Positions 44,204 through 63,380 of a DNA stretch of 64,000 nucleotides are shown here, piece after piece (the stretch's first letter is position 1; each line of letters starts with the position of its first letter). This DNA is from Bacteroidia bacterium. Lineage in GTDB: Bacteria > Bacteroidota > Bacteroidia > Bacteroidales > Prolixibacteraceae. A model generated the notes under the pieces. The model was given only the letters and a program-made list of their open reading frames with translations, had not been told where the DNA came from and ran no database searches. A program made the position numbers and the translations under genes. The DNA lies in the NCBI GenBank assembly GCA_026391315.1, contig JAPLDT010000053.1, positions 25,828 through 89,827 on the forward strand, in the 5' to 3' direction.

Positions 44204-45820
44204 TTATTTTTGAAGAAGTTCTTCTGTTTTTAATTTGGAAGGTTTAAAAATCCCTATAACTCCATTCAATCCAACTGTCATCACAATATTGTAGAAGAAT
44301 GTAAGGAAACCTAAAAGCAAAAAAGTTCCACAAACAGCCGCTAAAATCATATAGAGGTTAAATTCTCCGTTTACATACAAAGAACGTCTTAACATACCCT
44401 GAAGTCCGGCCATGCCCATAAAAGCACCCATTCCGACTCCGCCAAGCAGCTGAGCCCAAAAGTGGAAGTTGGCTAGTTTCTGGCTATATATTTTGGCTCC
44501 GTTTGTCAGGATTGGAAGAAGAAAATAGATGGCTGAATAGAGTGTCATTGCCAGGCCAACCAGAACGGCAACGTGAACATGCGGCCCAATGACCCATTGG
44601 GTATTGTGTAATATCCGGTTAAGACCGATATCTGCCTGCATGATTCCGGCCGGAACTGCCAGGGCAAATCCGAGTAACCCACCAAGTAAGAATTTCAAAG
44701 GATTGGTCATTTTTAATGGACGGGCACTCCAAAGAGTAGTTAGCGTGATAAAGAATGCAAGACCCTGTGTAATCAACTCAAAAGCTGTAACTAATTCACC
44801 GGAAACTACTTTAAGGTACCCTGGTTGTGCCTGATCGGAAAGCAGATGGTGGGACCATACGGTCCATGAAACTACCAGTTCAACCAGCAAAGCTATACGT
44901 GCAACTTTTTCCATGTAAAGCTTTTTGCCAGTGATGAGGGTAGCCAGCAAATACCAGGTACCGGCAACAAAAATCAATACCAGACCGTCAGCAACCAAAT
45001 CAAGTCCCCACCAAAACCAGTTTTTATACAACAAAGCGTCAACAGCCGTCGATTTTAGGTCAACGCCAAAGAGCGCAGAAACCATATAAACCAAAATCAA
45101 AACACCGGTAAATAGAATTATGGCTGCATTGAAGGCCACATCTACAGTCCCCTGCGCAATAGCTGCTACCGGTAATGAAACCAGTTGTTCTTTCTTCTTA
45201 CTGCGGAATAGGTTGGCTACGGCAGTAATCCCTAATGCAGATTTAAGCAAGGAGGCTTTGGGCTGTTTTTCCCATCCATCAGGCGTAAAAGTAATGGTCT
45301 TAAAAATGTTAATCACAAAAAAGACAGTACCGAGCATAACCAGTGCGATACCGGTGATAAAAAAGGTTCCTCCAATGACACTAAATTGAGTGAAATCAGC
45401 TGGAAGAGGCCAATATAAAGTGTACAGAGGCGCATAGTGGGTAATAAATCCGGATAACCAAAAAATCATGGTTCCACCTGCAATCAGCCAACAGGTCCAG
45501 TTCCCTAGTTTTATACTCCATAGTGGTTTGCCCATCAGAAAGGGTACCAGAAACAGAAAAGCACCAAAAACAATGGAATAGGTAGAACCAAAGATACCAA
45601 CCAGCGGATGCGCCGTCATAATGGCGAAAAATTGTTTGGTTTCCAGACCAGGGATCGGCTGGATCTCATAGATCCGCATAATCATCCCTTCTATAACTGC
45701 AAAGGCATAATAAAAAAGTCCGATTACAACGAAGCGCAAAGTCATTTTCTGCATTCTGGTTAGCGTATCTGGCTTAAATACACCCTCTTCCCCCTTCATA
45801 AGTGTCTCAATAAATTTCAT
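44204..45820 (-). CDS. Heme-copper oxidase superfamily subunit I, likely non-canonical nitric oxide reductase
   Basis: TAHPLVGIFG (TM2 His), WFWWGLDLVADG (TM6), VWSHHLLSD (TM7 HH), GPHVHVAVLVGLAM (TM10 HxH). Confidence 0.8.
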   Translation of the reverse strand: MKFIETLMKGEEGVFKPDTLTRMQKMTLRFVVIGLFYYAFAVIEGMIMRIYEIQPIPGLETKQFFAIMTAHPLVGIFGSTYSIVFGAFLFLVPFLMGKPLWSIKLGNWTCWLIAGGTMIFWLSGFITHYAPLYTLYWPLPADFTQFSVIGGTFFITGIALVMLGTVFFVINIFKTITFTPDGWEKQPKASLLKSALGITAVANLFRSKKKEQLVSLPVAAIAQGTVDVAFNAAIILFTGVLILVYMVSALFGVDLKSTAVDALLYKNWFWWGLDLVADGLVLIFVAGTWYLLATLITGKKLYMEKVARIALLVELVVSWTVWSHHLLSDQAQPGYLKVVSGELVTAFELITQGLAFFITLTTLWSARPLKMTNPLKFLLGGLLGFALAVPAGIMQADIGLNRILHNTQWVIGPHVHVAVLVGLAMTLYSAIYFLLPILTNGAKIYSQKLANFHFWAQLLGGVGMGAFMGMAGLQGMLRRSLYVNGEFNLYMILAAVCGTFLLLGFLTFFYNIVMTVGLNGVIGIFKPSKLKTEELLQK

Positions 45821-46447: not shown

Positions 46448-46867
46448 TTATGAAATCTGAAGTCTATTTTTTTTCTCTTTCAGATCATACAAGGTCGTAT
46501 TCGAAAGGGTATCCAGCATCTTGGTTTTGGCTTCTACCCAGGTTTCGTGCATGACACAAGGTTGTTCCTCCTTGCATTTCTGATGACCAAGAATACAGCT
46601 TCCCATTACGTCTGCTCCCTCTACAGTTTTGATTATGGAAGCAAGACTAATCTCTTCAAGGGGTTTTGCAAATACAAATCCTCCTTTTCTCCCTTTGGAA
46701 CTGCGGATAAAGCCCATTCTTGACAAATCTGTCATAAGCCTGCGCAAATACCGGCGTGGTATTTCCAATTCATCGTGAAGGAATTCGGCTGAAGATATTT
46801 CATTCTCACTGATTGCCATATAACTCAAAACTGTTAATGCGTATTCTGTTGTTTTATTTAAAATCAT
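46448..46867 (-). CDS. Rrf2/NsrR-like transcriptional regulator
   Basis: MILNKTTEYALTVLSYMA, PRRYLRRLMTDLSRMGFIRSSKGRKGGF, three-Cys motif CILGHQKCKEEQPC. Confidence 0.9.
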   Translation of the reverse strand: MILNKTTEYALTVLSYMAISENEISSAEFLHDELEIPRRYLRRLMTDLSRMGFIRSSKGRKGGFVFAKPLEEISLASIIKTVEGADVMGSCILGHQKCKEEQPCVMHETWVEAKTKMLDTLSNTTLYDLKEKKNRLQIS

Positions 46868-46965
46868 ATATATACTACAAAATGGTGGTAATTTATTTTG
46901 AAACAAAGTTAAATAATTATTTCTTTACATCAAGTTTTGTTTTCAAAATTTTTTAACGGAAAAGT

Positions 46966-52940: not shown

Positions 52941-53801
52941 ATGAAATTGAAAGACTCCACAATTCATCAAATTGTAATATCTTCCCTGGTTGTGATTGTA
53001 GTGACCACTGTCTCTGTTCTGTTATACATAGGATACAATTACTATTCAATACCATTGGAGGAGCGGCCTTTCCATGCATTGAACCAAACTTTTAAAGCAA
53101 GCGGACTTGTTGGCCATGGTCTGGGCATTGTAGGTTCTTTGTTGATTCTGTTTGGAGTTTTCTCATACATGTTAAGGAAACGGTTGCGGATTTTCTCCAG
53201 GATTGGAATTCTTAAGCATTGGCTGGAGTTCCATATTTTCCTCTGTACCCTGGGTCCTTTTCTTATTCTCTTTCACACAACATTCAAATTCGGAGGAATT
53301 GTAGCGGTTAGTTTCTGGAGTATGGTGGCAGTCTTCCTGAGTGGAATTCTTGGACGATATATTTATCTTCAAATACCAAGATCTATTGAAGGTCAGGAGC
53401 TTACACTACTTGAGCTGGAAGATCAAAAAATTGAAATGAACAAACAGCTTAGGCAAACTGTTACATTGGATGAGAGCATTTATGAATTGATCGGTAATTT
53501 TCCGGATAAATCAAAAGGGCAAACTAGTTTTTTTGGTCGAAGCAAGGAAGAGCGAGTTGCTTTGAAAAAATTGAGAGTTGAATTAAAGAGTCAAAGAATC
53601 CCTATTAAGAGGGCAAAGGAAATTGTTCAACTTTTTAAGAGCCAGTTAGGTCTGAAGAAGCGGATAGAGCGATTGGTTACCATGCAGAAACTTTTTGCCT
53701 ATTGGCATGTTGCTCATTTACCATTTGCGCTGATTATGTTGATAGTCATGATCATTCATGTAGTGGTAGCAGTCACTTTTGGATACAAATGGATTTTTTA
53801 G
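52941..53801 (+). CDS. Multi-pass membrane protein, b-type-cytochrome-like
   Basis: His-containing TM segments VGHGLGI, WLEFHIFLCTLGPFLILFHT, WHVAHLPFALIMLIVMIIHVVVAV. Confidence 0.6.
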   Translation: MKLKDSTIHQIVISSLVVIVVTTVSVLLYIGYNYYSIPLEERPFHALNQTFKASGLVGHGLGIVGSLLILFGVFSYMLRKRLRIFSRIGILKHWLEFHIFLCTLGPFLILFHTTFKFGGIVAVSFWSMVAVFLSGILGRYIYLQIPRSIEGQELTLLELEDQKIEMNKQLRQTVTLDESIYELIGNFPDKSKGQTSFFGRSKEERVALKKLRVELKSQRIPIKRAKEIVQLFKSQLGLKKRIERLVTMQKLFAYWHVAHLPFALIMLIVMIIHVVVAVTFGYKWIF

Positions 53802-53803
53802 CT

Positions 53804-55141
53804 ATGGAAGCACTAATAGAAAAATTGGTAACCTATTTGGTTGTTACGATTTTCATTGTAGCAATTATCGCAATCTATCTCTACAGACAAAAAAGGAATT
53901 CCCGTATAGTGGAAGCTAAAATTGCCATCGCAAAAGAAGAGGGAATGCATGAACCTGTCTCCTTACATCCTGTCATTGATGTGAACAGCTGCATCAAAAG
54001 CGGAGCCTGCATTACAGCATGTCCTGAAAAGGATATTATTGGGATCAAAGATGGGAAAGCCACGATAATAAATGCATCGCATTGTATCGGCCACGGCGCC
54101 TGTTTTCATGCCTGTCCTGTTCAAGCCATTACCCTGTTTATTGGAACCGAAAAGCGGGGTGTTGAACTACCACATGTCGATCAAACCTTTGAATCCAACG
54201 TGCCTGGAGTTTATATTGCCGGAGAGATGGGTGGAATGGGGCTGATCAAGAATTCGGTCGAGCAGGGGAAGCAAGCTGTTGAGAATCTGATCAAAAAGAT
54301 AGATAAAAGTGTGAACGCCCAGTATGATCTGATCATCATAGGTGCCGGTCCGGCAGGTGTGGCAGCCTCTTTGAACGCAAAAAAAAATAAACTAAATGCC
54401 TTGACCCTGGAACAGGATAGTTTAGGCGGGACAGTATTTACGTTTCCCCGTCAAAAAATTGTCATGACTTCTGCCATGGATTTGCCGCTGCATGGGAAAG
54501 TTAAGTTATTTGAAACCAGTAAATTGGAGTTGTTAAATCTTTGGACAGAAGTAATTTCAAAGAATCAAATTAGTTTGATAGAAAATGCAAAAGTTGAGTC
54601 TGTTACTCCGACCGATAAGTATTTTATAACCAAGACATTAAGCGGGGATGAATATACTTCAAGAAAAGTTTTGTTGGCCATTGGCAGGAGAGGATCTCCG
54701 CGGAAACTGAACGTTCCTGGTGAAGAGAGTATGAAAGTGGCTTACCGATTACTTGAACCTGAGCTTATTGAAGGTAAAAAAATTCTGGTAGTAGGAGGAG
54801 GGGATTCAGCGATTGAATCGGCATTGCTTCTTGTCGACCAAAATCAGGTGACAATATCATATAGAAGCGAGGTTTTCGGGAGGTTAAAACCCAAAAACAA
54901 TGAAAAAATAAAGGAAGCCATCGCGAATAATAAGGTTAATGTTCTGTTTAATTCCAACATAGCCGGCATTGAGGACCATCAGGTAAAGATACAGAAGACA
55001 GATAGTGAAAAGGAATTGGTTCTGGAAAACGACCTGGTGTATATTTTTGCTGGAGGAGAATTGCCAACACAATTTCTTGAAAAGATAGGAATCCGAATTA
55101 CTAAGAAATTTGGGGAAGCCATTTTAAAACACGAGGAGTAA
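53804..55141 (+). CDS. Membrane-anchored FAD-dependent NAD(P)-type oxidoreductase with N-terminal ferredoxin-like domain
   Basis: N-terminal TM; CIKSGACITACP and CIGHGACFHACP; DLIIIGAGPAGVAASLNAKK; KILVVGGGDSAIESALLL. Confidence 0.85.
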   Translation: MEALIEKLVTYLVVTIFIVAIIAIYLYRQKRNSRIVEAKIAIAKEEGMHEPVSLHPVIDVNSCIKSGACITACPEKDIIGIKDGKATIINASHCIGHGACFHACPVQAITLFIGTEKRGVELPHVDQTFESNVPGVYIAGEMGGMGLIKNSVEQGKQAVENLIKKIDKSVNAQYDLIIIGAGPAGVAASLNAKKNKLNALTLEQDSLGGTVFTFPRQKIVMTSAMDLPLHGKVKLFETSKLELLNLWTEVISKNQISLIENAKVESVTPTDKYFITKTLSGDEYTSRKVLLAIGRRGSPRKLNVPGEESMKVAYRLLEPELIEGKKILVVGGGDSAIESALLLVDQNQVTISYRSEVFGRLKPKNNEKIKEAIANNKVNVLFNSNIAGIEDHQVKIQKTDSEKELVLENDLVYIFAGGELPTQFLEKIGIRITKKFGEAILKHEE

Positions 55142-55162
55142 TTGATGATAGTAGATTGAGGT

Positions 55163-56767
55163 ATGATTAAGAGCAAGTCTTTACAAAGGATAATCGTCAT
55201 TTTATGTGCCATGATACTGTCAATGAGAGGAATGGCTCAAATTTCGCCCGGAGATCTCACCAAAGTGCATGCCCATCTGGAAGGGATGGCCAATTGTACC
55301 TTGTGTCATACCTTGGGGGCCAAGGTTTCCAACGAAAAATGCCTTGATTGTCACAAAGAAATCAAAAAACGTTTGGATGAATCAAAAGGATTTCATGCTT
55401 CCTCCAAAGTAAAAGGAAAAGATTGCATCATTTGTCACAGTGACCATTACGGACGAAATTATGATATTGTCCACCTAGTGAAAGATAAATTTGATCACAA
55501 CGATACCGGTTACAAATTAGAAGGAAAGCACTCAAAAAAAGATTGTCTGGATTGCCATAAGAAGGAGAATATTGCTGACAAACAGCTAAAGAGCAAACAT
55601 GAGACGTTTTTGGGGTTGAACGATCTTTGTTTGACCTGTCATGAAGATTACCACCAAAAGACGCTCTCTGTGAACTGTTTGAATTGTCATATCGTCGATG
55701 CCTTTAAACCTGCTTCAAAATTCAACCATACAAAGGCCAAGTACCAGTTACGGGGAAAACATACAGAGGTGACCTGTGTGAAGTGCCACGCTTTAAACGT
55801 AAGAAATGGGAAAAATTTTCAGCAATTTACCGGTTTACAATTTCAAAATTGTGTGAATTGTCACAAGGATCCGCACGAAAACAAATTCGGCCAAAATTGC
55901 ACCCAATGTCATGTGGAAACCTCTTTCCAGACTGTTAAGGGTATTGGTCAGTTTGACCATAGCAAAACGGGATTTTTACTGGAAGGACGACATGCTCAGG
56001 TAGCCTGTAAATTATGTCATAAAGTAAATATCACTGCGCCGGTCAAGCACGAAAAATGTACGGATTGCCACAAAGACTACCATAAAAATCAATTTGTGAA
56101 AGATGGCAAATCCCCGGATTGTTCTGAGTGTCATGATGCGACGGGTTTCACCAGGTTTTCATATTCGTTTGAAAAGCACAACTTAACCAAATTCAAGCTT
56201 GAGGGAGCGCATCAGGCTACACCCTGCTTTGAATGTCATAAGAAAGAGAAGGATTGGAATTTCAGGGGGATCGGTGAACGCTGTGTCGATTGCCACAAGG
56301 ACATTCACCAAAACTTGATCGATGCCAAATATTACCCTTCCCAAAAGTGTGAAAATTGCCATCAATCATCGGCCTGGAGTGACGTAAAGTTTGACCATCA
56401 ACTTACATCATTCGCCCTTGAAGGCAAACATGCTACTGCAACTTGCAGAAAATGCCATTTCAAAGATAACAGAGTAAGTATTGACAGTCAGAGATTTAAT
56501 GCCTTGAAAGCTAGTTGTGAGAATTGTCACAACGATGTTCATCACGCACAATTCAATGAGAATAAGGAGATCGTTTGCCTGAGGTGTCATGGTTTCGAAA
56601 ATTGGAAACCAGAAAAATTTAACCACAATTCCACACGGTTTAAGTTAGACGGAGGTCACAAGGATGTTGCATGTATAAAATGCCATAAACCCATAACAGA
56701 AGGGAATTTGAGATATATTAACTACAAATTTAAAGAGATATTATGCGCAACTTGTCACTTACAATAG
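55163..56767 (+). CDS. Multiheme c-type cytochrome, 20 CxxCH motifs
   Basis: Signal peptide and 20 CxxCH motifs counted by eye. Confidence 0.92.
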   Translation: MIKSKSLQRIIVILCAMILSMRGMAQISPGDLTKVHAHLEGMANCTLCHTLGAKVSNEKCLDCHKEIKKRLDESKGFHASSKVKGKDCIICHSDHYGRNYDIVHLVKDKFDHNDTGYKLEGKHSKKDCLDCHKKENIADKQLKSKHETFLGLNDLCLTCHEDYHQKTLSVNCLNCHIVDAFKPASKFNHTKAKYQLRGKHTEVTCVKCHALNVRNGKNFQQFTGLQFQNCVNCHKDPHENKFGQNCTQCHVETSFQTVKGIGQFDHSKTGFLLEGRHAQVACKLCHKVNITAPVKHEKCTDCHKDYHKNQFVKDGKSPDCSECHDATGFTRFSYSFEKHNLTKFKLEGAHQATPCFECHKKEKDWNFRGIGERCVDCHKDIHQNLIDAKYYPSQKCENCHQSSAWSDVKFDHQLTSFALEGKHATATCRKCHFKDNRVSIDSQRFNALKASCENCHNDVHHAQFNENKEIVCLRCHGFENWKPEKFNHNSTRFKLDGGHKDVACIKCHKPITEGNLRYINYKFKEILCATCHLQ

Positions 56768-59700
56768 TCATTTTGATGATGGCTTTCTGTGTGCAGGGGC
56801 AAACTTCACCTCACGGGAAAGCTTTTCACGTCGATTGTGCCCAGTGTCATACTTCTAATAGTTGGAAAGTTAATACCAAGGACATAAAATTTAACCACGA
56901 CAATACAGATTTTAAGCTGGTTGGACAGCACACTGTGATCAATTGCAGGGATTGTCACCTGACGCTCACTTTTAAAGATGGAAGAAGGAATTGTATTGAT
57001 TGTCATATTGATGTGCACAATCAGTCCCTTGGAAAAGATTGTGAAAAGTGCCACACCCCGAAAACCTGGATTATCAGTGATATTACATCTATACATCAGA
57101 AAACCAGGTTTCCTCTCCTTGGGGCCCACAAATCGGTTAATTGCACTGAATGTCATAAATCAGCCTCTAATTTTCAGTATGAACCACTAGGAATTGAGTG
57201 TGTCAATTGTCACCTCAGCGATTTTCAGAAAACGACCACTCCAAACCATGTAACAAGTAAGTATTCAACAGACTGTCTGGAATGCCACAATCAAAATTCA
57301 AGCAGTTGGCACACAGGATTAATCAACCACGATTTTTTCCCGTTAACCGGCGGACATAACGTTGGATGCGGGCTTTGTCATACGACAACCCCCTTCACGA
57401 AATTATCGACTGAATGTAATACCTGTCATAACAAACATTTTACTGCTGCGCAAACCCCTAAGCATGTTGAAGCCGGAATTCCGGTTAAATGTGAAACTTG
57501 CCACAACATTTCTGCATGGAAACCATCAACGTTCAATCATATCTCAACGGGTTTTGAATTAAAAGGAGCTCACAAGAATGTAGTACAATGTTCTGATTGT
57601 CATAAAGGTAATCTGACATCAGCAAAACAGGAGTGTTTAAGTTGTCATCAGGTTCAGTACGACAATGCACTAAATCATAAAAAAGTAAATTATCCGGTTG
57701 ATTGTATTAAATGTCATACGCAAAACAACTGGGTGGAGAATATTTTTAGCCATTCAACGACCAATTATCCATTAACAGGAGCTCACTTAAAAGCCAATTG
57801 TGCCGATTGCCATTTGACAACCCTTGCAGGAACAACAACCGTTTGCAGCAATTGTCACCTGGCAGCTTACACCGGCTCGCAAATACCGGCGCACGTAACT
57901 GCCGGCATTCCAAAGGATTGTTCCACTTGTCATACTACAGCCGCATGGAAACCTTCCAGTTTCAATCATACCACAACAGGATATGAACTAAAAGGGGCTC
58001 ACAAAACTCTGGTGCAATGTTCGCTGTGCCACTTAGGAAATGTTACCTCAGCACCTACAACATGTGTTGGCTGCCACCAGGCAAAATATGATGCTGCCCC
58101 TAACCACAAAGCTCAGGGCTATCCGGTGGATTGTTCGTCTTGCCATACCCAGAATAACTGGCTGGAGAATGGTTTTAACCACGCAGCGACAAGTTTCCCC
58201 TTGACTGGCGCACACACCACTGTTTTGTGCTCGAAATGTCATGCAGTTGGATTTAAAGGAACACCCAATGTATGTAGTAGTTGCCACTTGCCGGTCTATA
58301 CGAGTTCTCAGCTTCCTGGACATGTGGCCGCAGGAATACCAAAGGAATGTGCCACCTGCCATACAACGGCTTCGTGGAAACCATCAGCTTTCAACCATAC
58401 CACTACCGGGTATGAATTAAAGGGCAGTCATAAGTTGATTGTTCAGTGTTCTTCATGCCACAAGGGCAATGTCACTACGGCCCCGCAAGTTTGTATTGGT
58501 TGCCATCAGGCACAGTATGATGTTGCCCCGGGACACAAACAAAGCGGATTCTCGACTGATTGTGCAAAATGTCATTCCCAGGATAATTGGCTATCATCCA
58601 GCTTTGATCATAGTACAACCAATTTCCCGTTAACCGGATCACATACCAAGGTGCTTTGTTCTGTCTGCCATGTGAACGGATACATTGGAACACCAACTGC
58701 TTGCAGTAGTTGCCATTTACCGGTTTATACCAGTTCTCAGCTGCCAGCACACGTTGCTGCAGGAATACCCAAGGAGTGTGCCCAGTGTCATACACCCGCG
58801 TCCTGGAAACCCTCCCTGTTCAACCATACTACCACCGGTTATGAATTAAAAGGTGCGCACAAAAATATTGTTCAGTGTTCGCAATGTCACAAAGGGAACC
58901 TTACATCCGCCCCATTGACTTGTATTGGGTGCCATCAGTCCAACTATGATACGGCCCTCAATCATAAATCCCAGGGATATCCTACTGATTGTACCATTTG
59001 TCACACTCAGAATAACTGGCTTGAGAATAGTTTCAATCACGCAGCAACAGCTTTCCCATTGACTGGTGCTCACACCACAGTATTGTGTTCAAAATGTCAT
59101 ACCGTAGGTTTTAAAGGGACTTCCACTGTTTGCAGCAGTTGCCATCTGCCGGTCTATTCCAGTTCTCAGTTGCCTGGCCACGTAGCAGCAGGTATTCCTA
59201 CCGATTGCTCAACCTGTCACAATACTACCGCATGGAAACCTTCTTTATTTAACCATACCACTACCGGTTATGAGTTGAAAGGGGCACACAAAAATATCGT
59301 TCAATGTTCAGATTGCCATAAGGGGAATGTCACAACCGCTCCACAGACTTGCGTCGGATGTCATCAGAGCAATTATGATGCTGCTTTGAATCACAAGGCT
59401 CAGGGGTATCCGACAGATTGTACGATATGCCACACACAGAACAACTGGCTGGAAAATATTTTCAACCATGCTACAACTGCCTTCCCATTGACCGGAGCCC
59501 ATACAACTGTTGTCTGTGCAAAATGCCATACCACAGGATTCAAGGGAACCTCCACGCTCTGTTTCACTTGTCATGCAGCCAAATACAATGCCTCGACAAA
59601 TCCGAACCATCTTGGGGCGAAATTTCCCACCAATTGTGAAATTTGTCATTCAACCACAGCATGGACTCCTTCTACCTATAATCATGATGCCCAGTATTTC

Positions 59701-59904
59701 CCGATTAACAGTGGCAAACACAGGGGAGTTTGGACGTTATGTAGCGAATGCCACAATGTTTCGACCAATTATGCCGCTTTTACCTGCATTTTGTGTCATA
59801 CACACAGTAACAAAGCATCGGTAGATAGTGAACATAAGGGTGTAACGAATTATACCTACACAGCTACATCGTGCTACGTTTGTCATCCAAGGGGAACCAA
59901 TTAG
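56743..59904 (+). CDS. Large multiheme c-type cytochrome, 43 CxxCH motifs
   Basis: Signal peptide and 43 CxxCH motifs counted by eye in 1053 aa. Confidence 0.93.
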   Translation: MRNLSLTIVILMMAFCVQGQTSPHGKAFHVDCAQCHTSNSWKVNTKDIKFNHDNTDFKLVGQHTVINCRDCHLTLTFKDGRRNCIDCHIDVHNQSLGKDCEKCHTPKTWIISDITSIHQKTRFPLLGAHKSVNCTECHKSASNFQYEPLGIECVNCHLSDFQKTTTPNHVTSKYSTDCLECHNQNSSSWHTGLINHDFFPLTGGHNVGCGLCHTTTPFTKLSTECNTCHNKHFTAAQTPKHVEAGIPVKCETCHNISAWKPSTFNHISTGFELKGAHKNVVQCSDCHKGNLTSAKQECLSCHQVQYDNALNHKKVNYPVDCIKCHTQNNWVENIFSHSTTNYPLTGAHLKANCADCHLTTLAGTTTVCSNCHLAAYTGSQIPAHVTAGIPKDCSTCHTTAAWKPSSFNHTTTGYELKGAHKTLVQCSLCHLGNVTSAPTTCVGCHQAKYDAAPNHKAQGYPVDCSSCHTQNNWLENGFNHAATSFPLTGAHTTVLCSKCHAVGFKGTPNVCSSCHLPVYTSSQLPGHVAAGIPKECATCHTTASWKPSAFNHTTTGYELKGSHKLIVQCSSCHKGNVTTAPQVCIGCHQAQYDVAPGHKQSGFSTDCAKCHSQDNWLSSSFDHSTTNFPLTGSHTKVLCSVCHVNGYIGTPTACSSCHLPVYTSSQLPAHVAAGIPKECAQCHTPASWKPSLFNHTTTGYELKGAHKNIVQCSQCHKGNLTSAPLTCIGCHQSNYDTALNHKSQGYPTDCTICHTQNNWLENSFNHAATAFPLTGAHTTVLCSKCHTVGFKGTSTVCSSCHLPVYSSSQLPGHVAAGIPTDCSTCHNTTAWKPSLFNHTTTGYELKGAHKNIVQCSDCHKGNVTTAPQTCVGCHQSNYDAALNHKAQGYPTDCTICHTQNNWLENIFNHATTAFPLTGAHTTVVCAKCHTTGFKGTSTLCFTCHAAKYNASTNPNHLGAKFPTNCEICHSTTAWTPSTYNHDAQYFPINSGKHRGVWTLCSECHNVSTNYAAFTCILCHTHSNKASVDSEHKGVTNYTYTATSCYVCHPRGTN
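57463..59607 (+). repeat. Five tandem in-frame 429-bp (143-aa, 6 CxxCH) repeats within the multiheme cytochrome gene
   Basis: HV.AGIP.. unit boundaries at 57463, 57892, 58321, 58750, 59179 and 59608, each exactly 429 nt apart. Confidence 0.93.
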
Positions 59905-59980
59905 TATTTGTTGGATGAAAAGGAAAAGAATAAATTGATATACTGGTGGTCAGCAGAAATTTTTTAACATATTAAATTGA

Positions 59981-61588
59981 TTGATGAGAATTTTTATTAT
60001 TGTACTGGGAATGTTTCTGTTTATTCAGGTTATCTCAGCTCAAAACAAAAAAAACGAGATAGAGGGAGCTGTAACATTCATGACAGCTCAAAATATATAT
60101 GTTAAATTTCTGTCCGCCAAAGGGATCAGTACCGGTGATAAAATATTTATCCGAAAAAATGATCTTTTGGTTGAAGTATTGTCTGTTGAAAATGCTTCAT
60201 CGGTTTCCTGTGTTGGGAAGCCGGTTGGTTCAGAAAAATTAAAAGTCGGAGATAAAGTGATCGCTTTGGTTACTAAGGAAGATGCTGTAGCTGTACAAGA
60301 AATACAAAAGGAACAAGTTAACCAGGCGGTTGCTGATACTTCAAAATCCCTGAATCTAAAAGCAGGACCAACGCCTCTATTTAGGAAAGAACGAATAGAT
60401 GGTCGGGTGCAAATTTCCTCTTACACAAATCTTTCCAATTTGCAGCCAGCGAACAACCGACTTCGGTATATCTTTTCGATGAATGCCTCCAATATCTCTA
60501 ATTCGCGTTTCTCACTGGATACTTACATCTCTTTTGCGCATAAGCTAAATGACTGGACACCAGTTAAGGACAATATCTTTAATGCGCTGAAAATCTACGA
60601 CTTGAATCTGAAATATGAAGCAGATAGTAAAACAACGATTTGGCTGGGCCGGAAAATAAATCCCAAGATCTCCAGTCTTGGAGCCATTGATGGGGTACAG
60701 TTTGAGATGAATTCCGGCCAATTCTTCTGGGGTGGCGTAGTTGGTTTTCGACCGGATTATGTCGATTACAGTTTTAACGGGAAGCTATTGGAATATGGTG
60801 CGTTTATTGGCCATACGATAAAGAATGACAATGGTGTCATGCAGACCTCCCTGGCCGGATTTAATCAAACAAACTCCGGAAATACCGACCGCCGGTTTGT
60901 CTATTTTCAGCATGACAACTCTCTTTTTAATAACCTGAACCTGTTTGTCTCTTCGGAAGTTGACCTCTATAAAATGGTTAACGGAATTCCTTCAAATGGA
61001 CTGTCGCTGACAAGTTTATACCTGATGCTGAACTACAGGATATCCAAAAGATTATCTGTTTCAACTTCTTACGACAACCGTAAGAATATTATTTATTACG
61101 AGACCTTTAAGAACTATATTGACGTAATGCTTGCGGATGCCACACGTCAGGGTGTGCAAGCCAGGATCAATTACAGACCCGTTAACTATATGAGTGTGGG
61201 TGTATCTGCTAGTTACTGGGATAGGGCAGGGGATAGCAAGCCAACCAAAAATTTTAATGTAATATTTAACTATTCCCAATTAACTTCCTTGAAAATTTCG
61301 ACTACTTTAACTGCCAATATTTTAAAAACCAGTTATGTCGATGGAGTCGTTTATGGTGTCAGATTTGACAAGGACTTTCTGAATGGCAAGATGAACTGGG
61401 GAGTGAACTATAGGTTTGTCGATTATAACTATCTCATTTCTTCTTCGAAACTCATTGAACACATCGGTGGAATTGATTTATCTTATCAATTTACCCGCAA
61501 ATTCTCGATGTCTTTCAATTACGAAGGAACCTTCGAAAAACAGAATAAATATCACCAGATCTATTGCAGTCTGATCAAGCGCTTCTAG
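59981..61588 (+). CDS. Outer-membrane beta-barrel protein (porin-like) associated with the multiheme cytochromes
   Basis: Signal peptide, SH3-like N-terminal segment, alternating barrel strands, C-terminal SLIKRF. Confidence 0.75.
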   Translation: MMRIFIIVLGMFLFIQVISAQNKKNEIEGAVTFMTAQNIYVKFLSAKGISTGDKIFIRKNDLLVEVLSVENASSVSCVGKPVGSEKLKVGDKVIALVTKEDAVAVQEIQKEQVNQAVADTSKSLNLKAGPTPLFRKERIDGRVQISSYTNLSNLQPANNRLRYIFSMNASNISNSRFSLDTYISFAHKLNDWTPVKDNIFNALKIYDLNLKYEADSKTTIWLGRKINPKISSLGAIDGVQFEMNSGQFFWGGVVGFRPDYVDYSFNGKLLEYGAFIGHTIKNDNGVMQTSLAGFNQTNSGNTDRRFVYFQHDNSLFNNLNLFVSSEVDLYKMVNGIPSNGLSLTSLYLMLNYRISKRLSVSTSYDNRKNIIYYETFKNYIDVMLADATRQGVQARINYRPVNYMSVGVSASYWDRAGDSKPTKNFNVIFNYSQLTSLKISTTLTANILKTSYVDGVVYGVRFDKDFLNGKMNWGVNYRFVDYNYLISSSKLIEHIGGIDLSYQFTRKFSMSFNYEGTFEKQNKYHQIYCSLIKRF

Positions 61589-61721: not shown

Positions 61722-63380
61722 GGGCCTGCTGAAAAAGTGTTTACTATTTGATTTCATGTCAATTATAACGATATTTGAGAGAATAAGTGCAAGGAATTAT
61801 GGAAAAAGTAAAAAGAAAGCATGCACCGACTCCAGCATACATGAGTCCGAATCAACTTACTTTGGATGCATTTAAGAGTCCATTCGAGCGTGAACTTAAC
61901 CCCAGTAACAGATGGGTAGTTCTTGCCGGACTGATTCCATGGGACGAGATTAGCTCATTATATCTCAAAAATGTACCAGCGAGTAATACGGGGCGTCCTG
62001 CTTTAAATCCTAGAATTGTTATAGGTTCTCTGATCATTAAACACATGTGTAATCTTGACGATCGTGAGGCAGTTGATCAGATAGCTGAAAACATTTATAT
62101 GCAGTACTTTCTGGGCTATACGAGCTTTATCAAGGAACCACCGTTTGATGCCTCTCTGTTTGTTGATTTCCGGAAGAAACTTGGAATGGATAGCCTGAAT
62201 GCCATCAACGAAAAGATAGCTGAACTAAAGGCTGATTTTCTTTTTCAGAACGACAATAGAAAACCTGAGAAAGATGATCATGATTCATCTGGTGCTGACA
62301 ATCATTCTGATTCCTCTCAGGTTGAAAATAAAGGCAGAATCATCTTTGATGCCACAGCCTGTCCTCAGGATATTGCTTATCCAACGGATCTGGACCTGCT
62401 TTCAGATGCAAGAGAGAAATCAGAGCAATTGATTGATCAGCTCTACAACCCCGTATTGCATAAGAAAAAGCCCAGGACTTATCGTAAAATTGCCCGTCAC
62501 CGTTACCTGAAAACAGCTCAGAAAAAGAATAAAACTCACAAAGAAATACGCAAAGCGACAGGTAGCCAGTTAGGATTTTTAAAACGTAATCTTAACTCAA
62601 TCAATAGGTTATTAGACTCATATAAAACGATCCCTCTCAAGCACAAAAACCACAAATACCTTTTGGTGATAAACACGTTGTATGCTCAACAGAAAGAGAT
62701 GTATAGCAATGGAGTTCATCGCATTGATGATAGGATTGTCAGTATCCACCAACCTCATGTTCGACCAATCGTTCGCGGGAAAAGCCAGGCAAAAGTCGAG
62801 TTTGGGGCAAAGATCCACCTTTCACTCATTGATGGAATATCATTTCTCGATCAGCTGAGCTGGGATGCCTTTAATGAAGGAAGCCACATGATGGAGTACA
62901 TTGAGAAATACCGGAATCGTTTTGGCTTTTATCCCAAGGAGGTTCTGGCAGATCAGATCTACTGCAACCGAATTAACCGTGCTGCCCTGAAAGAGAAAGG
63001 AATCAAGCTGCTGGCCAAGCCACTGGGAAGGCCATCGGCTGTGCAAAAACACGTAAGTCCGGGAGAACGTAATCCAATCGAAGGAAAGTTTGGACAAGCC
63101 AAAACAGCCTACGGGTTAAACCGTGTAAAGGCCAGACTTAGAGAAACCAGCGAATCGTGGATTGCCTGCATCATCCTGGTGCTTAACCTGGTCAAATTGG
63201 CCGGGGTGGCACTCCCATATCTTATTGTCAACTTGCTTTCCAATTTAACAGCACAGGTGATAAAAATATGTCGATCATATTCTTACCAAGATTTTCAGAT
63301 AGATTTAAAAATTATTATACAAATGCTCTACTCTAAACAAGTTGAGCTAAAAAATCTGGCCTGAGTTTAACAGCAGACCC
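61722..63380 (+). mobile_element. IS element (IS5/IS1182-like), 1659 bp
   Basis: Imperfect terminal inverted repeats GGGCCTGCTG (61722-61731) / CAGCAGACCC (63371-63380); flanking TAATTA direct repeat at 61716-61721 and 63381-63386. Confidence 0.88.
61799..63364 (+). CDS. IS transposase, DDE type
   Basis: RPALNPRIVIGSLIIKHMCNLDDREAVDQIAENIYMQYFLGY; DATACPQDIAYPTDLDLLSDAREKSEQLID; C-terminal PIEGKFGQAKTAYGLNRVKAR. Confidence 0.93.
   Translation: MEKVKRKHAPTPAYMSPNQLTLDAFKSPFERELNPSNRWVVLAGLIPWDEISSLYLKNVPASNTGRPALNPRIVIGSLIIKHMCNLDDREAVDQIAENIYMQYFLGYTSFIKEPPFDASLFVDFRKKLGMDSLNAINEKIAELKADFLFQNDNRKPEKDDHDSSGADNHSDSSQVENKGRIIFDATACPQDIAYPTDLDLLSDAREKSEQLIDQLYNPVLHKKKPRTYRKIARHRYLKTAQKKNKTHKEIRKATGSQLGFLKRNLNSINRLLDSYKTIPLKHKNHKYLLVINTLYAQQKEMYSNGVHRIDDRIVSIHQPHVRPIVRGKSQAKVEFGAKIHLSLIDGISFLDQLSWDAFNEGSHMMEYIEKYRNRFGFYPKEVLADQIYCNRINRAALKEKGIKLLAKPLGRPSAVQKHVSPGERNPIEGKFGQAKTAYGLNRVKARLRETSESWIACIILVLNLVKLAGVALPYLIVNLLSNLTAQVIKICRSYSYQDFQIDLKIIIQMLYSKQVELKNLA

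Follow-up and report, generated by a model that had tools for sequence, protein, structure and literature searches.

The closest described counterparts of the locus considered here are the porin-cytochrome clusters of the PCC3 type, exemplified by Slit_1446-1449 and Slit_0867-0870 of Sideroxydans lithotrophicus ES-1 (He et al. 2017, PMC5566968). PCC3 loci consist of four genes, for an inner-membrane protein (IMP), two multiheme cytochromes and a porin, in this order. The IMP has about 300 aa, five transmembrane segments, two WX3HX13H motifs and an SGXXG motif; one cytochrome is periplasmic with ~21 hemes and the other is larger and repeat-built (median 34, up to 85 hemes), both falling within 22-39 residues per heme. 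According to the 2017 study (PMC5566968), the IMPs of PCC3 and PCC4 share the WX3HX13H/SGXXG signature, the four histidines of which were read as ligands of two b-hemes. A 64 kb stretch of contig JAPLDT010000053.1 from a Bacteroidia bacterium of the family Prolixibacteraceae (hereafter, the window) contains five open reading frames (ORFs) of the same direction, A-B-C-D-E, on the + strand at 52941..61588. A carries the same IMP signature, and A-C-D-E repeats the PCC3 order; B, an oxidoreductase gene, is extra. On balance, this operon probably encodes a trans-envelope conduit of the PCC3 type, which would receive electrons on the cytoplasmic side from an NAD(P)H-type oxidoreductase of its own and deliver them to an extracellular acceptor.

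Organisation of the operon

The ORFs were checked on the + strand, and CXXCH was counted as the heme motif. All five ORFs are present at the positions given by an earlier, sequence-only reading, and its counts of 20 hemes for C and 43 for D are exact; A, B and E contain no CXXCH. At the DNA level, 63 of the 65 +-strand matches to CXXCH-encoding DNA in the window fall within 55295-59872, and the opposite strand has three matches. The same reading had the spacing partly wrong. The stop of A (53801) and the ATG of B (53804) do not overlap but are separated by 2 nt, and the gap between B and C measures 21 nt instead of 22 nt; the overlap of C and D (56743/56767) is real and amounts to 25 nt. For the gap between D and E, 79 nt replaces 76 nt, counted from the ATG at 59984, which is a likelier start of E than the TTG at 59981. 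A search for a Bacteroidota-type promoter consensus 5′ of A and for a terminator-like site 3′ of E found neither.

Conservation of the five genes as a unit

Among close relatives, 45 of 148 have A; across the phylum Bacteroidota, A was detected in 46 of 396 sampled genomes, corresponding to 37 of 172 genera, and most of the A neighbourhoods examined hold the whole five-gene unit. A scan of GTDB genomes with A yielded at least 525 relatives; the best 80 of these, which were inspected for lineage, include members of Prolixibacteraceae, Saprospiraceae, Cyclobacteriaceae, Flavobacteriales, Melioribacteraceae and Ignavibacteriaceae, as well as Chlorobiota bins. Among 107 distinct loci, A is followed by B in 100 of 104 cases, B by C in 90 of 96 and C by D in 78 of 84, with E next in 68 of 71; the exceptions include a plasmid trio of Alteromonas and Methylophaga (see below), small inserted ORFs and contig ends.

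When these loci were combined with distant lineages, 134 non-redundant loci from Bacteroidota and Ignavibacteria showed the order A-B-C-D-E or, in a separate clade, A-C-D-E-B, where B is still linked, after E. In each of the trees built for A, B, C and E, one supported split (0.95-1.0) divides the two gene orders; the A-C-D-E-B side also takes in two further loci, whose contigs end before B. Pairwise distance matrices correlate at 0.88-0.93, with none of 500 permutations as high, and the values for E against A, B and C are 0.91-0.93; host shared descent adds to this correlation, and the kept linkage is therefore the stronger argument. Taken together, adjacency, the two-order split in the trees and the distance correlations indicate that the five genes are inherited together, and that B stays linked even after its relocation. 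Co-conservation, which the sequence-only reading had named as a check, is thus confirmed over 107-134 loci. The conservation tests rule out a chance or artefact origin of the gene set.

Few neighbours offered clues to function. Across the 107 loci, only two kinds of neighbouring gene were notable: a 245-aa lipoprotein-like gene, found on the same strand 3′ of E in about 20 loci and a candidate accessory component, and CcsA/ResB-type cytochrome c maturation genes, located directly 5′ of A in ~7 loci, including that of plasmid pEMTOL02 of Emticicia oligotrophica, which bears the whole operon. In the window, a DDE transposase gene (61787-63364, +) starts ~200 nt 3′ of E; no transposase was seen at this position in the same-genus loci, which were compared by ORF size only.

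Membrane protein A and oxidoreductase B

Gene A (52941..53801, +) encodes a predicted inner-membrane protein of 286 aa with five hydrophobic, predicted transmembrane segments, WX3HX13H motifs at residues 94 and 255 and SGXXG at residue 134. The histidine pairs noted earlier in its transmembrane segments proved to be real and conserved as two HX13H motifs: both strict WX3HX13H motifs occur in 125 of 134 relatives, and SGXXG occurs in all of them. Judging by these motifs, A is a candidate transmembrane diheme cytochrome b, corresponding to the PCC3-type IMP. The Pfam search gave no match for the window A and, for some of its Bacteroidota relatives, sub-threshold matches to DUF4405 and cytochrome b561-type families; PDB sequence searches with A, D and E returned nothing meaningful.

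On plasmids of Alteromonas and Methylophaga, the gene for a distant relative of A is flanked by those for a FAD_binding_6/NAD_binding_1/Fer2 flavoprotein and for a 7-heme cytochrome, and the same three-gene trio is present, by annotation, on Sphingobium and Bradyrhizobium plasmids; the Bradyrhizobium flavoprotein gene is short and adjoins an insertion sequence (IS) element. The A family is therefore paired with two unrelated NAD(P)H-type flavoprotein folds, an argument for A being fed by NAD(P)H from the cytoplasm. The Alteromonas trio adjoins a NiFe hydrogenase, and the function of the trio is apparently undescribed. Other A-like proteins (33-69 bits) are encoded near 10- to 12-heme cytochromes in loci L200, L202, L213 and L214, with short paralogues in L143 and L186; some of these loci also hold a B-like protein, and they may represent a smaller relative of the system.

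Gene B (53804..55141, +) encodes a protein of 445 aa that combines a membrane anchor at its N-terminus with an Fe-S domain and a Pyr_redox_3 module, in agreement with the anchored FAD/Fe-S NAD(P)-type oxidoreductase proposed for it before. The single N-terminal hydrophobic segment is followed by basic residues, suggesting that the body of the protein is cytoplasmic. The predicted ligand cysteines of the Fe-S domain are C63, C69, C73, C94, C100 and C104, with Ser66 and His97 at the second-ligand positions, where both ferredoxin motifs would normally have Cys. Since these six are the only cysteines of B, the protein lacks the active disulfide of thioredoxin reductases. The second ligand position of the cluster-2 motif is occupied by His in 123 of 123 sequences, and that of the cluster-1 motif by Ser, Thr or, among the aligned members with the A-C-D-E-B order, mostly Cys; a His-ligated Fe-S cluster in B is possible. 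B also has FAD and NAD(P) motifs, and the nicotinamide use of B is predicted to be of the NAD(P)H type.

Cytochromes C and D and barrel E

Gene C (55163..56767, +) encodes a 20-heme cytochrome c of 534 aa (26.7 residues per heme) with a signal-peptide-like N-terminus. Unfiltered, the heme counts of C are 20 in 73 loci and 23 in nine, the others being 2, 15, 17 and 19 in what are probably fragments; C has 19 hemes in two distant loci, and a later list with only 20 or 23 hemes is the product of a filter. Across 95 sequences with 20 hemes, all 20 motif histidines are invariant, and so are exactly 20 histidines outside the motifs; such numbers are expected if every heme is bis-His ligated and none is left open for catalysis. 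Wire-like cytochromes of solved structure, including MtrA and OmcS, are distantly similar to C in sequence.

Gene D (56743..59904, +) encodes a 43-heme cytochrome c of 1053 aa (24.5 residues per heme), also with a signal-peptide-like N-terminus, which is built of tandem 71/72-aa three-heme modules within a 143-aa super-repeat. Relatives of D contain about 9-67 hemes, and 88 of 114 counts equal 1 mod 3 (p ~ 1e-21, relatedness being ignored in this statistic). A D-family protein of 2075 aa from Saprospiraceae bin Go_SlAct_bin_393 (locus L132) has 82 CXXCH motifs, close to the 85 hemes reported in 2017 as the record; a second D of the same bin (L129) has 72 CXXCH motifs and ends at a contig edge. 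Inside the genus of the window the counts are 43, 34 and 31. The DNA identity of the repeat units of D (0.59-0.73) is mostly equal to or below their protein identity (0.55-0.84), a pattern that is plainest among the most similar pairs and indicates old repeats under protein-level constraint and not recent copies. C is nearly constant in size and D elastic, which suggests that C bridges a set distance, namely the periplasm, and that D extends into unconstrained space outside the cell; C is a probable periplasmic wire and D a probable extracellular one.

Gene E (59984..61588, +; 534 aa from the ATG) encodes a predicted outer-membrane beta-barrel of 22 strands, preceded by a small N-terminal beta domain (pLDDT 81). 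This prediction and barrel matches in the PDB bear out the barrel assignment of the sequence-only reading, although the fold search returned generic barrels only, with MtrB (6r2q_B) at rank 42 (TM score 0.34). Pfam assigned no family to the window E, and a fold search against viral proteins added nothing. E belongs to the conserved unit, and its tree splits like those of A, B and C.

Proposed electron path and alternative explanations

In the proposed path, NAD(P)H would reduce the FAD of B, from which electrons would pass to the two Fe-S centres of B, one with the invariant His in a ligand position, and further to A, whose two b-hemes would be stacked across the inner membrane. A would then reduce the 20-heme wire C, which would cross the periplasm and pass electrons through the barrel E to D, the wire made of repeats, which would lie on the cell surface or outside it and might deliver them to a mineral, a humic quinone, an electrode or another cell. 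The steps beyond A are proposed from architecture and from analogy with porin-cytochrome systems. Electron flow outward from NAD(P)H is thermodynamically downhill, and the thermodynamics of NAD(P)H oxidation are the reason for placing the direction outward. The trans-envelope conduit of the sequence-only reading also held up in all of its named checks that were run, namely, co-conservation and the membership of the barrel in the unit.

Several observations weigh against this path. The structure model of A is of low confidence, with no meaningful PDB fold match; D, inspected by eye, has no obvious lipobox or known export signal, and its surface location is putative. The conduit function of PCC3 is itself putative, and in ES-1 the PCC3 clusters are reported to have been down-regulated, not induced, with Fe(II).

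Perhaps A exchanges electrons with menaquinol, as in a quinone-linked PCC3, and B is a side branch, whether as an additional input, in maturation or in redox sensing. He et al. (PMC5566968) suggested that the PCC3 IMP is a diheme cytochrome b active with quinones, the four-gene clusters described in ES-1 have no B, and the sub-threshold matches of some Bacteroidota relatives of A to cytochrome b561-type and DUF4405 families point the same way. Nevertheless, no intact Bacteroidota cluster lacks B, the gene was kept when it changed its place, and the plasmid relatives of A are paired with another NAD(P)H-type flavoprotein; a quinone link of this kind is considered unlikely.

Less probable still is an inward conduit, which would take up electrons supplied by Fe(II), by a cathode or by another cell and pass them via D-E-C and A into respiration or NAD(P)+ reduction. 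The heme-copper-oxidase-type genes of the host would suit it, as would the presence of the operon in Emticicia oligotrophica, a species generally regarded as aerobic; however, driving electrons inward onto NAD(P)+ would be uphill, and B is an NAD(P)H-type flavoprotein without visible energy coupling. The first descriptions of PCC3 came from Fe(II) oxidizers, with the flow modelled as inward, but the ES-1 PCC3 is reported not to be induced by Fe(II). The least probable alternative, a periplasmic electron store or soluble-acceptor system with C and D as heme capacitors and the barrel as an ordinary transporter, could draw on the missing recognised export signal of D and on capacitor roles proposed for such large cytochromes, but it is opposed by the position of E, next in 68 of 71 intact clusters and matching A, B and C in its distances (0.91-0.93), and by the length of D, which varies freely over about 10-82 hemes and would be hard to accommodate in a periplasm whose width is roughly constant; C, by contrast, is near-fixed at 20.

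The outward, NAD(P)H-fed conduit can also be put in a bolder form, to which somewhat less than even weight is given: the operon may encode a surface-wired NAD(P)H oxidase that bypasses quinones and combines a TrxR-fold Fe-S flavoprotein with a His-ligated cluster, a diheme-b protein A and a wire. In many Bacteroidota, possibly including aerobes, it would then serve not as a respiratory chain but as a redox valve that discharges cytoplasmic reductant onto extracellular acceptors.

Host context and significance

The host genome contains four heme-copper-oxidase-type genes, two NapC/NirT-type genes and a few other multiheme genes, and no cytochrome bd; with this set the host looks like a respiring organism, for which the conduit would be an additional outlet (or inlet). 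Another contig of the host carries genes for proteins with 6, 4 and 7 hemes, the 7-heme one next to a small membrane protein, as well as a duplicated 307-aa gene. Elsewhere in the window (44204-45820 and 46448-46906, both on the - strand), a stand-alone COX1-family protein is encoded close to an Rrf2-type regulator and to a 191-aa ORF that has no family assignment; this may be a nitric-oxide-reductase-like unit.

Extracellular electron transfer is seldom associated with Bacteroidota, yet A is present in 37 of the 172 sampled genera. If the proposed path is true, abundant bacteria of soil, lakes and sludge are able to place electrons outside the cell directly from NAD(P)H. Unexplained porin-cytochrome clusters have been reported here and there from lake Bacteroidetes, as have giant cytochromes from sludge Saprospiraceae, and the operon could tie both to one defined gene set. 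The D family, moreover, is a natural series of wires differing mainly in the number of three-heme repeats, which would be useful for relating conduction to length.

Comparison with known systems

The operon resembles MtrCAB, MtoAB and PioAB in its logic, a periplasmic multiheme cytochrome combined with an outer-membrane barrel, with an outer cytochrome in MtrCAB. The components differ: C scores 46.2 bits against the DmsE/MtrA family (TIGR03508), for which the cut-off is 192.2, and has 20 hemes, not 10; the window E matches neither MtrB_PioB nor another porin family, and no MtrB-type match was found among 29 E members. The Mtr system uses CymA rather than the pair of A and B. In OmbB-OmaB-OmcB, an OmbB-type porin accompanies cytochromes of 8 and 12 hemes, compared with 20 and 43 here.

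The two HX13H motifs of A, which are predicted to lie on two transmembrane helices, and the putative cytoplasmic NAD(P)H flavoprotein partner recall the NADPH oxidases and ferric reductases (NOX/FRE). A has no match to their domain PF01794 (Ferric_reduct), however; B contains a Pyr_redox_3-type module with a ferredoxin domain and is not of the FNR type, and electrons from A and B are apparently passed to a cytochrome wire. The plasmid trio likewise places an A-family membrane protein beside a redox flavoprotein and a multiheme cytochrome, but its flavoprotein has another fold (domains were checked in Alteromonas and Methylophaga), its cytochrome is small, and neither a 20-heme or repeat cytochrome nor a recognised barrel lies alongside. 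A search for proteobacterial PCC3 on plasmids found none, only this 7-heme trio.

The sequence-only reading had held that the operon follows the logic of porin-cytochrome systems with different components; this stands against MtrCAB but not against PCC3, described in 2017 with the same IMP signature, heme-count pattern and gene order. The window A agrees with the PCC3 IMP in length, segments and motifs, the 20 and 43 hemes of C and D follow the PCC3 pattern, their residues per heme fall inside the PCC3 range, and E is a cluster-encoded predicted barrel, although barrels of up to 42 strands have been reported for PCC3 and 22 strands are predicted here. PCC3 was reported from Proteobacteria, and the operon is found in Bacteroidota and Ignavibacteria. 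The PCC3 literature examined mentions no B-type gene or Bacteroidota cluster, the absence of B near the ES-1 PCC3 being taken from consecutive locus tags only; a literature search on this gene set in Bacteroidota, with preprints and most subscription journals outside it, found nothing describing B or naming the operon. By its described features, and likened to PCC3 by description, the operon is filed as a PCC3-like variant with five genes instead of four, in which only B, lying between A and C or after E, and the distribution in Bacteroidota look additional.

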